A stretch of 64,000 nucleotides of DNA from Bifidobacterium choerinum (GTDB lineage Bacteria > Actinomycetota > Actinomycetes > Actinomycetales > Bifidobacteriaceae): contig NZ_JGYU01000005.1 of NCBI RefSeq assembly GCF_000741135.1, positions 113,965 to 177,964 on the forward strand, written 5' to 3'. Of this stretch, positions 6,919-63,737 are shown piece after piece. Position 1 is the stretch's first letter, and the number at the start of each line of letters is the position of its first letter. Below the pieces are notes generated by a model. It saw nothing but the letters and a program-made list of their open reading frames with translations, did no database searches and had not been told where the DNA came from. The position numbers were made by a program, and so were the translations under genes.

Positions 6919-7054
6919 TACGATGGTGTTATCCAATCAAGACGGTCGTCCGACACGTAAGAACACGGCTAAAACCCAATGATTGCAACATTCACGAGAA
7001 TCATCCGGTTCTAGCACCGCTCGCATACGACGTGAAGAGTTAATGAATGTTTAA
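6919..7054. other. Probable attL: core at the left edge plus one arm-type site
   Basis: The left limit of identity with the phage-phage junction (6919) fixes the left edge of the att core. A 15-base motif TTAATGAATGTTTAA lies at 7040-7054. The same 15-mer occurs at 63487-63501 and, on the integrase side, at 63229-63243. The core sequence itself cannot be bounded on the right without the empty attB site. It does not overlap a tRNA gene. Confidence 0.6.
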
Positions 7055-7136
7055 CGAAAACACGCATCGGACAGATCAACACCGTTCACGCGACCGGATA
7101 ACCGCCAAGACAAGCACAACACACCGTCTGGATACG

Positions 7137-7177
7137 AAAAAACGGGGCCGGCAGCCACTCAGGCCGCCAGCCCCGTT
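7137..7177 (-). terminator. Terminator of the late operon
   Basis: On the minus strand, AACGGGGCTGGCGGC pairs imperfectly with GCTGCCGGCCCCGTT and is followed by TTTTTTCG. It lies downstream of the holin and the CRISPR-like repeats and would end the long leftward late transcript. A second copy lies at 63584-63624. Confidence 0.75.
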
Positions 7178-7210
7178 AGTTGAGAGCGGCGCCTCGGCTC
7201 CGCCCTCTGA

Positions 7211-7290
7211 AACCCACCCCGCTGTGATGCGGGGAACACGATTGCATCAAACAATCTAGGGGGTCATCCCCGCTGTGATGCGGGGAACAC
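7211..7290 (-). CRISPR. Two type I-E-like CRISPR repeats in the late 3' UTR
   Basis: Read on the minus strand, two units contain GTGTTCCCCGC-ATCACA-GCGGGG. Their identical 23-base cores are at 7268-7290 and 7217-7239. The upstream unit continues as ATGACC, matching the usual GATGAnCC tail of I-E repeats; the downstream unit ends differently (TGGGTTT). The period is 51 bases, so the insert is about 22 bases rather than the usual 32-33, and the loop is two bases longer than in standard I-E repeats. No cas gene is present. The units lie between the holin stop and the late terminator in crRNA orientation. They could be a solitary-repeat RNA anti-CRISPR, a degraded mini-array or simple hairpins. 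Confidence 0.5.
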
Positions 7291-7428
7291 TGTCGCGCGA
7301 TTCGATTTAACGAATCATCCCAACAAGCGTAGGGAAACGCAACCGTGCTGTTTAATTGTGGTATCCACAAAATAGTAGATATTTCAACCCACTCACCGAT
7401 TGCTCGGCGAGACAGTACGACAAGTATA

Positions 7429-7728
7429 TCACAACTTGCGGTTCGGATTGTATGCGACACCGAACGCCGCTGCCACGGTCGGAATCGCGCCGGCCAGCGA
7501 CGACAGCAGGATCGTCACCCATTTCGCCGCACCCGCTTCGATGGCGACGGGAGCTGCGACGGTGAGGATGACGCCGGCGATGGCGCACACCACATACACG
7601 GCGGTGCGCACGGCCGGGTCGAACACTGGCGTATACGGCTCCTCATGCGGAATACTGTCGGGCAGTGGCTGGTCCGTGTCCATGTACATACGGTCGAGGT
7701 CGTCGTCGCTCATATGCTCATCGGTCAT
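7429..7728 (-). CDS. Phage holin
   Basis: 99 residues with two hydrophobic segments: about 42-63 (TAVYVVCAIAGVILTVAAPV) and about 70-90 (VTILLSSLAGAIPTVAAAF), after a 38-residue acidic cytoplasmic region. The turn AIEAGAAKW sits between them. Size, two-segment layout and position next to the endolysin match the small actinophage/r1t-type holins that form membrane lesions at the end of infection. The start has GGGGAGATC upstream. Its 3' half recurs at the window end. Confidence 0.85.
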   Translation of the reverse strand: MTDEHMSDDDLDRMYMDTDQPLPDSIPHEEPYTPVFDPAVRTAVYVVCAIAGVILTVAAPVAIEAGAAKWVTILLSSLAGAIPTVAAAFGVAYNPNRKL

Positions 7729-7740
7729 GATGATCTCCCC

Positions 7741-8505
7741 TCACTTGGCGTCCTTGACGAGGACGCCGAACGCGGCCATGTCGGCCGGGGAGACGTCACC
7801 GTATTCCTCCTTGGCGCCGACGCACTGCGCCCACGTCTTGCACTGCTCACCGGTCTTCGAGTAGACGTATTTCATGGTCTTGAGCACGTTCATGGACGGG
7901 ATGTGACGGTACTGGCCGGCGGCCATGTCGGCCACGTAGAGTTCCTGAGTGCCCTTCTTGCGGAAGATGACATGCATGTTCTTGTTCTCCTTTTTGAGTT
8001 GCGCCACCGTCTGTGCGGCGGTGGGCTTGTTGTTCATCTTGTCCTGGACGAGTCGGACGAAAGCATTCCAGCTGTAGCCGAAACGGTTGAAGTACGGGAA
8101 CGGGTCGGTATGGTCGCTGCCACCGTACACTTGGCTGAACCACTGGTGGGGATGCATCCGATCCACACCCCATCCGTGTGCTTTGAGTATCTGCGCGCAC
8201 ACGTCGGCTGCGATCTGGATACCACGGTCGAAGTCGGCTTTGTTTGTGGCTTCGCAGATTTCGATGCCGACGCACGTCGCGTTGCCGTTGCCGACCTGCC
8301 AACACAGGCGGTTGTCGGGCACCGTGTGATACGCCTCGCGCCAGTCGGACGTGTAGTGCACCGCATAGTCGTATCCGCGCGACCACAGGTCGCGATGATT
8401 TCGGGCTGTGGCGCCGGGATTCGCTGTGGAATGCACGGCTAGCATGGATGGATTGAGTGGGCCGTGCCCATCGTTGACAATGTCCTGTCTGATGGATATC
8501 AACAT
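7741..8505 (-). CDS. Endolysin, N-acetylmuramoyl-L-alanine amidase (Amidase_2)
   Basis: 254 residues. The N-terminal half is an Amidase_2/PGRP domain: AVHSTANPGATARNH with zinc ligand His25, HYTSDWREAYHTVPDN, GIEICEATN, and a DHTDPFPYF segment holding another expected ligand. It should cut the amide bond between muramic acid and the stem peptide. The C-terminal 90 residues after a Lys/Asn-rich hinge are probably a cell-wall binding part, but I recognise no named motif. RBS AAAGGAG precedes the ATG. There is no signal peptide, so release would depend on the holin. Confidence 0.9.
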   Translation of the reverse strand: MLISIRQDIVNDGHGPLNPSMLAVHSTANPGATARNHRDLWSRGYDYAVHYTSDWREAYHTVPDNRLCWQVGNGNATCVGIEICEATNKADFDRGIQIAADVCAQILKAHGWGVDRMHPHQWFSQVYGGSDHTDPFPYFNRFGYSWNAFVRLVQDKMNNKPTAAQTVAQLKKENKNMHVIFRKKGTQELYVADMAAGQYRHIPSMNVLKTMKYVYSKTGEQCKTWAQCVGAKEEYGDVSPADMAAFGVLVKDAK

Positions 8506-37085: not shown

Positions 37086-37226
37086 TATGCGCACGCACAC
37101 GCACACGCACACATGCACGCGCACGCACACATGCACGCACACGCACACATGCACGCGCACGCACACATGCACGCACACGCGCACATGCACGCACACGCGC
37201 ACATGCACGCACGCGCACATGCACGC
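37086..37226. repeat. 141-bp perfect alternating purine-pyrimidine tract
   Basis: Every dinucleotide step from 37086 to 37226 alternates purine and pyrimidine, built from GCAC, ACGC and CATGCACGC units in imperfect tandem copies. Long open frames on both strands are produced by the repeat and are not credible genes. The rest of the gap 37021-37337 shows nothing else I can name. Such DNA readily forms left-handed Z-DNA under negative supercoiling. Confidence 0.9.
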
Positions 37227-63657: not shown

Positions 63658-63737
63658 AACCCACCCCGCTGTGATGCGGGGAACACGATTGCATCAAACA
63701 ATCTAGGGGGTCATCCCCGCTGTGATGCGGGGAACAC
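63658..63737 (-). CRISPR. Second copy of the two CRISPR-like repeats
   Basis: Identical to 7211-7290: two GTGTTCCCCGC-ATCACA-GCGGGG units, 51-base period. If the second phage is a separate, related one, keeping these units unchanged while another site nearby differs by 2 bp would hint at selection. Confidence 0.5.

Follow-up and report, generated by a model that had tools for sequence, protein, structure and literature searches.

The prophage in the window, as the whole analysed stretch of 64,000 nucleotides from Bifidobacterium choerinum (contig NZ_JGYU01000005.1) is called here, carries a tandem of type I-E-like CRISPR repeats separated by 20-nt inserts. From its sequence this element is best explained as a phage-borne mimic of CreR, which would lead a host's Cascade to repress the host's own cas promoter (probability roughly 0.6). 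CreR is a crRNA-like regulator of cas operons, as Liu et al. reportedly described in Cell Host Microbe in 2023. A Racr-like decoy effect may operate alongside the mimicry. The wider proposal, which we favour to the same degree, is that short-insert I-E arrays of Actinobacteria and Enterobacterales phages, with inserts tuned to the host cas promoter, are a guide-type anti-CRISPR, that is, an off-switch controlled by the phage.

The element lies on the minus strand, with lysis genes before it and a strong terminator after it (Table 1). In the RNA the order is psi-R0, ATGATTCG, insert A, R1, ATGACCCC, insert B, R2 and the terminator. An earlier note on this DNA had described two repeat units with a period of 51 bases, and both are present as exact copies with that spacing. 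It had missed a third, degenerate unit (psi-R0) 49 nt upstream of R1, so that there are three units with periods of 49 and 51. Its estimate of about 22 bases for the insert becomes 20 nt, since 8-nt handles follow the first two units. The repeats are real: a pattern with an N6 loop and up to three mismatches has 6 matches in the window, among them the second copy at 63664-63737 and two readings of the opposite strand, whereas 100 shuffles averaged 0.43 and never reached 6. The 136-nt RNA of the element has a fold z of -4.15, the 206-nt stretch that includes the terminator one of -6.88, and the element stretch folds better than 200 of 200 shuffles. In Rfam there was a single sub-threshold match, of 7138-7209 to asX1, which was taken as chance (32.5 bits, cut-off 70).

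Table 1. Positions in the window of the element, its parts and the neighbouring features.
Feature	Position	Strand	Sequence	Remark
Endolysin	7741-8505	-		Amidase_2, phrog_670
99-aa ORF	7429-7728	-		holin position, upstream of element; no Pfam or PHROG match
psi-R0, degenerate repeat unit	7319-7339	-	CGTTTCCCTACGCTTGTTGGG	stem with one T-T mismatch; relaxed scan
Handle after psi-R0, 8 nt	7311-7318	-	ATGATTCG	position by analogy with type I-E handles
Insert A, 20 nt	7291-7310	-	TTAAATCGAATCGCGCGACA	between psi-R0 handle and R1
Repeat R1	7268-7290	-	GTGTTCCCCGCATCACAGCGGGG	exact type I-E-like unit
Handle after R1, 8 nt	7260-7267	-	ATGACCCC	
Insert B, 20 nt	7240-7259	-	CTAGATTGTTTGATGCAATC	between R1 handle and R2; no promoter target found
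Repeat R2	7217-7239	-	GTGTTCCCCGCATCACAGCGGGG	exact copy of R1; downstream sequence unlike handle
Intrinsic terminator	7141-7177	-		downstream of element
Second copy of R1 and R2	63664-63737	-		within repeated contig end 63366-64000

The surrounding genes (endolysin, terminase, tape measure, major head protein, integrase) are those of a prophage. The terminator announced in the earlier note was found, and the endolysin is confirmed; the gene the note called a holin matches no family in Pfam or PHROG. A stretch of 637 bp around the element (6919-7555) is repeated at the contig end (63366-64000) with one 2-base indel. An assembly that started out from the integrase end, crossed the attachment site and read on into the left end of a circular or tandem phage would give such a repeat. 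Because of this repetition the copy at 63664 was rejected as a second prophage and as an independent case, and the two were counted as one locus. The four copies of the repeat in the whole genome are these two readings and nothing else. IMG/VR record L035 was likewise set aside, being identical letter for letter to part of the window. The array regions of the window and of two other contigs (L038, L413) had no match in the INPHARED collection. The earlier note also held that cas genes are lacking, and this stands for Cas6e, the family searched for, which is absent from the one genome concerned. An imperfect tandem repeat of about 18-bp units adjoins the terminase region (37090-37226).

The type I-E form assigned to the units agrees with the repeats of the genus. 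The pattern GTGTTCCCCGC-N(3-8)-GCGGGG occurs in 18 of 112 Bifidobacterium genomes, in 9 of them in at least 15 copies, and the arrays that were read have a period of 61 and the repeat GTGTTCCCCGCNNNNGCGGGGATGATCCC or one close to it. Window units and genus repeats have in common both stem arms, including GTGTTCCCCGC and GCGGGG, the 5' GTGTT, and the ATGAYCC handle (in the window ATGACCCC after R1). The loop is 6 nt long against 4 nt in the genus, the two extra bases already pointed out in the earlier note. Cas6e is present in 33 of the 112 genomes. One genome without it (G029) has two I-E-like units 61 nt apart (L040, 9784 and 9845, minus strand), the last followed by a T run. The likeness of the repeats, together with analogous units in other phages, makes it likely that the element yields an RNA acting on type I-E systems, and to this extent the RNA anti-CRISPR proposed earlier is upheld; the idea of a pure trap with a filler insert is not, as insert A resembles a CreR-like guide. 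Ordinary hairpins or terminators ending the late transcript would fit the strong terminator just after the element and the T runs that follow some final units elsewhere. This reading is very improbable: R1 and R2 have no T run after them, the 5' GTGTT and the handle are conserved with I-E repeats, and insert A matches a native guide and a promoter.

Native guides of this kind are found in the type I-E loci of Bifidobacterium. They stand before cas3 or in the interval from cas3 to cas8e, in units made up of a degenerate repeat, then ATGACCC or ATGATCC, 20-22 nt and a repeat. This is the anatomy given for CreR in the available part of a review (PMC12737573): a degenerate repeat, a guide partly complementary to the cas promoter, and a repeat. 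The cas regions fetched numbered 33 and came to 552 kb, drawn from 31 of the 33 genomes that have Cas6e. CreR-like units adjoin cas3/cas8e in 13 or more of the first 16 regions (L340-L355); among the second 17 (L356-L372) several have similar units of another repeat family upstream of cas3. Native inserts were read in 11 of the first 16 (none in L341, L344 and L347; the units of L348 and L349 were outside the test). In type I-E guides, positions 6 and 12 are unpaired. Matches were therefore scored over 14 positions, with 6 and 12 omitted by design.

For 10 of these 11 native inserts the best match elsewhere in their own region is the cas3 or cas8e promoter interval (three ties), and for the remaining one (L346) the promoter interval ranks second. 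The PAM at the targets is AAC in 9 and AAT in 1, with one read one base out of register. Mismatches fall on guide position 6 in 6 of 11, once the out-of-register row is put back in frame, on position 12 in 4 of 11, and also on position 9 in 4 of 11. Over 892 PAM-flanked promoter sites, scores of 12-14/14 were obtained for 10 of the 11 native inserts and for 1 of 549 real spacers of the same genus. Units of period 50 between cas3 and cas8e in Pluralibacter, Bordetella and Pantoea match the adjoining or a nearby interval. Pfam places Cas3 and Cse1 (Cas8e) beside the target sites in genomes G038 and G019, in Pantoea and in Corynebacterium ulceribovis.

Insert A resembles one of these native guides closely. 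It is identical to CTAAAGCGGATTGCGCGACA, the guide of a different species (G038), at 16 of 20 positions, the exceptions being 1, 6, 9 and 12. None of 2000 shuffles did as well, and real spacers reached at most 12/20 against any native guide. At the G038 cas3 promoter insert A scores 12/14 with PAM AAC (0 of 200 shuffles; the promoters in these shuffle tests came from 15 of the first 16 cas regions, all but L344). As no Cas6e occurs in the prophage's own genome, the match is to the promoter of another species. Over the first 16 positions this is the best AA-flanked site for insert A in the 33 cas regions; when all 20 positions are counted, three other sites in them tie with it. The pattern of bases shared by insert A and the G038 guide occurs in the 112 genomes at the G038 site and in one other sequence, identical in four genomes. 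Insert B has no match beyond chance, be it to a native guide or on the promoters (best promoter score 9/14, with 159 of 200 shuffles as good). Against the window itself the best scores of inserts A and B were 10/14 and 11/14, with no sign of self-regulation.

The short insert, which the earlier note had found unusual, has the length of a CreR-like guide and is not an ordinary 32-nt spacer. This bears on the degenerate mini-array aimed at a rival phage, which the earlier note had offered as an alternative and which would work through the host Cascade. Viral arrays with host-like repeats do exist (PMC11656645, in the part available), but the inserts here are of 20 and not 32 nt, insert A looks like a CreR-like guide, and the pattern around it, TAAANCGNATNGCGCGACAGTG, occurs among viral contigs in the window's own phage alone. 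A mini-array against a rival is accordingly a far-fetched reading. The 15-base core of insert B, taken without a PAM, was found in 82 stretches of viral contigs, the own phage among them. It was rejected as a rival-phage spacer, none of the 82 except the own phage being in a type I-E repeat context.

Phage inserts were also compared with the cas promoters of the genomes that carry them. In Pantoea sp. BAV 3049 two arrays stand apart from the cas locus, each surrounded by phage genes (one by DnaB-like helicase and replication O-like genes, the other by head, tail and replication genes). The inserts of these arrays, GTTACACCTTATTCTTGTTAT and GTTACACCTTAGTCTTATTGT, match the genome's own cas3-cas8e promoter at 14/14 with PAM AAG. 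With at most one mismatch the seed pattern has four sites in this 5.3-Mb genome: the promoter target, the native guide and the two prophages. In C. ulceribovis DSM 45146 the prophage has tail genes, endolysin and then the array on the same strand, and its insert TCCTAGTTGTTGGAGGCCCT matches the own cas3-cas8e promoter at 14/14 with PAM AAC; the only mismatches in the first 16 positions are at 6 and 12. The score of 14/14 was reached by 0 of 300 shuffles for each of the three.

Altogether, of the six prophage or prophage-like arrays compared whose genomes have Cas6e, three match the own cas promoter. The prophage-like arrays L291 (Erwinia), L256 and L071 (Bifidobacterium goeldii) found no match in the own cas region; in B. 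goeldii, where Cas6e is present, the phage inserts scored at most 10/14 there. The Cas6e of B. goeldii (L344:12693-13406) has no cas3 or cas8e among the adjoining ORFs tested and marks a remnant I-E locus. A genome scan for short arrays gave at least 118 stretches, and 10 isolated short arrays were kept among the matches listed. Three of them lie within cas loci (L228, L278 and L296, the last judged by ORF sizes and without a promoter match). Two in prophages match the own promoter (L273, L266), three in prophages or prophage-like regions do not (L291, L225, L256), and the other two (L311, L263) have no promoter match. The second Pantoea prophage came to light separately from these ten.

At 7291-7318 of the window the handle and insert may pair (GATTCG/CGAATC), and the native unit of G038 has GATCC/GGATT, with compensating changes. 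A pairing score as high as that of the window was seen in 0.7% of real spacers. Such pairing also occurs in several native units and is absent from the Pantoea inserts.

Analogous units occur in other phages. In IMG/VR the pattern restricted to short periods gave 35 stretches and its complement 5. Without two near-duplicates 33 distinct loci remained, and in 17 of them the period is 49-51; compared with a flat distribution over 17 values, which is a rough model, this gives p = 1e-5. Not all of the 33 are mini-arrays of the window's kind: several lie in long arrays on jumbo-size contigs. When the matches listed of a wider scan were pooled with the short-period loci, the periods peaked at 61-62 and 49-50; the pooled set over-represents short periods, which are a minority among the matches listed of the wide scan alone. 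The variable stem base is G-C in 17, A-T in 12, G-T in 3 and A-C in 0 short-period units, against 61, 39, 3 and 1 in units of period 58-66. The similar pairing in both classes indicates that the hairpin is kept as in real arrays. Seven viral contigs (L111, L121, L127, L131, L139, L142, L149) have I-E-like units only 35-36 nt apart.

Among 12 inserts from five Bifidobacterium phages, 6 resemble a native guide (at most 22 of 2000 shuffles as good), and only 3 of the 12 beat most shuffles on the sampled promoters of the genus (0, 6 and 8 of 200). A full guide match is in a 4.7-kb phage fragment (L047) with its array about 0.9 kb downstream of the endolysin: its insert equals the native guide of G019 at 21/21 and scores 11/14 on the G019 promoter. 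Phages of other or unknown host supplied eight inserts (four from L051, two from L065, one each from L057 and L291), which were run on 30 enterobacterial promoter pieces; none beat shuffles beside AAG or another AA PAM. The L057 insert scored 13/14 at an ATC-flanked site, a score that none of 60 shuffles reached. The L051 array region had no match in E. coli genomes. Directly upstream of three enterobacterial phage arrays are related genes (phrog_3626/12690; L273:1367-1933, L291:5187-5759, L065:7528-8034). Their HTH matches are weak and below threshold, and two of these genes have such a match to Aca2/YdiL as well.

Two further explanations concern the function of such arrays. As a pure RNA anti-CRISPR decoy of the Racr kind, the hairpins would bind Cas6e and Cas7e and block Cascade assembly, and the insert sequence would be irrelevant. 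The likeness to genus I-E repeats, the identity of R1 and R2 and the lack of a target for insert B suit a decoy, and according to the accessible part of PMC10651486 a type I-E system is inhibited by solitary phage-borne repeats of this type. This explanation is possible though clearly the less probable one, as it leaves the 16/20 agreement of insert A with a native guide, the 21/21 of L047 and the own-host promoter matches at 14/14 unexplained. The element could instead be a relic, a host CreR unit acquired by the phage through recombination and now without function. The absence of Cas6e from the own genome, the degenerate psi-R0, the targetless insert B and the unchanged host guide in L047 speak for a relic, and it is nonetheless improbable given the intact and identical R1 and R2, the stem pairing kept in the short-period units and the similar arrays after lysis genes in three actinobacterial phages.

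The preferred reading, a CreR mimic, would work as follows. The element would be transcribed from the side of the lysis genes, and host Cas6e would cut the tandem into short crRNA-like guides that imitate CreR. These may load into a shortened Cascade that binds without cleaving and represses the host cas promoter; the surplus units could also serve as decoys, in the manner of Racr (PMC10651486). An RNA of the phage that combines I-E repeats and a handle with a 20-nt guide against a cas promoter would be expected to act like CreR, on the phage's behalf. In the window the guide part would be insert A; the present host has no Cas6e, so that the element would either be of use in other hosts or amount to a remnant. 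Against the reading speak this lack of Cas6e, the unmatched insert B, the 9 of 12 Bifidobacterium phage inserts that do not stand out on the sampled promoters, the three prophage-like arrays without an own-host match, and the omission of positions 6 and 12 from the score. Shortened spacers are known from the type I-B system of Haloarcula to make Cascade repress without interference (PMC10989794, in its available part). There, 24 nt lowered transcription to about 11%, with interference and primed adaptation gone; 21 nt lowered it to 22%. Spacers of 20 nt brought it down to 9% and 42% on two targets, but a third target kept 65%, which also speaks against the reading.

The RNA anti-CRISPRs known so far sequester Cas proteins, a loss to which the host CreR loop responds with higher cas expression (available part of PMC12737573). 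If the proposal is true, a guide supplied by the phage closes this way out and keeps cas low, for example in a lysogen, and it accounts for the tandem repeats and the inserts of 20-21 nt. The prediction is exact: for three own-host pairs and one cross-species pair it specifies the guide, its PAM and its target site down to the base.

No paper on a phage-borne CreR was found in the open-access literature (preprints were outside the scope), which does not prove that none is in print. Viral CRISPR mini-arrays (PMC11656645; see also PMC6858448) are likewise virus-borne repeats without cas genes. In such an array the repeats should be identical to those of the host and the spacers full-length and matched to other viruses; the window units have the longer loop, and the window inserts are not full-length spacers and have no viral target found. 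CreA of CreTA and CrePA is also a crRNA-like RNA that directs Cascade to a promoter (available parts of PMC12737573 and PMC10989794); it differs in that no toxin gene was seen beside the window element, where none was looked for. Racr, so far as the accessible part of PMC10651486 goes, is similarly a virus-borne mimic of the host CRISPR repeat without cas genes and a predicted Cas6 substrate. What sets the window apart from a repeat that is solitary within 100 bp is its tandem of three units, spaced at 49 and 51 nt and carrying a guide-like insert. The same part states that SRUFinder drops full repeat matches less than 100 bp apart, so arrays of the window's kind would largely escape that survey. 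CreR itself is a close counterpart too. The window element differs from it in lying in a prophage and not at a cas locus, in its tandem units and in matching a promoter of another species. It shares with CreR the succession of repeat, short guide and repeat of the cognate CRISPR type, and its insert is short as in the native units.
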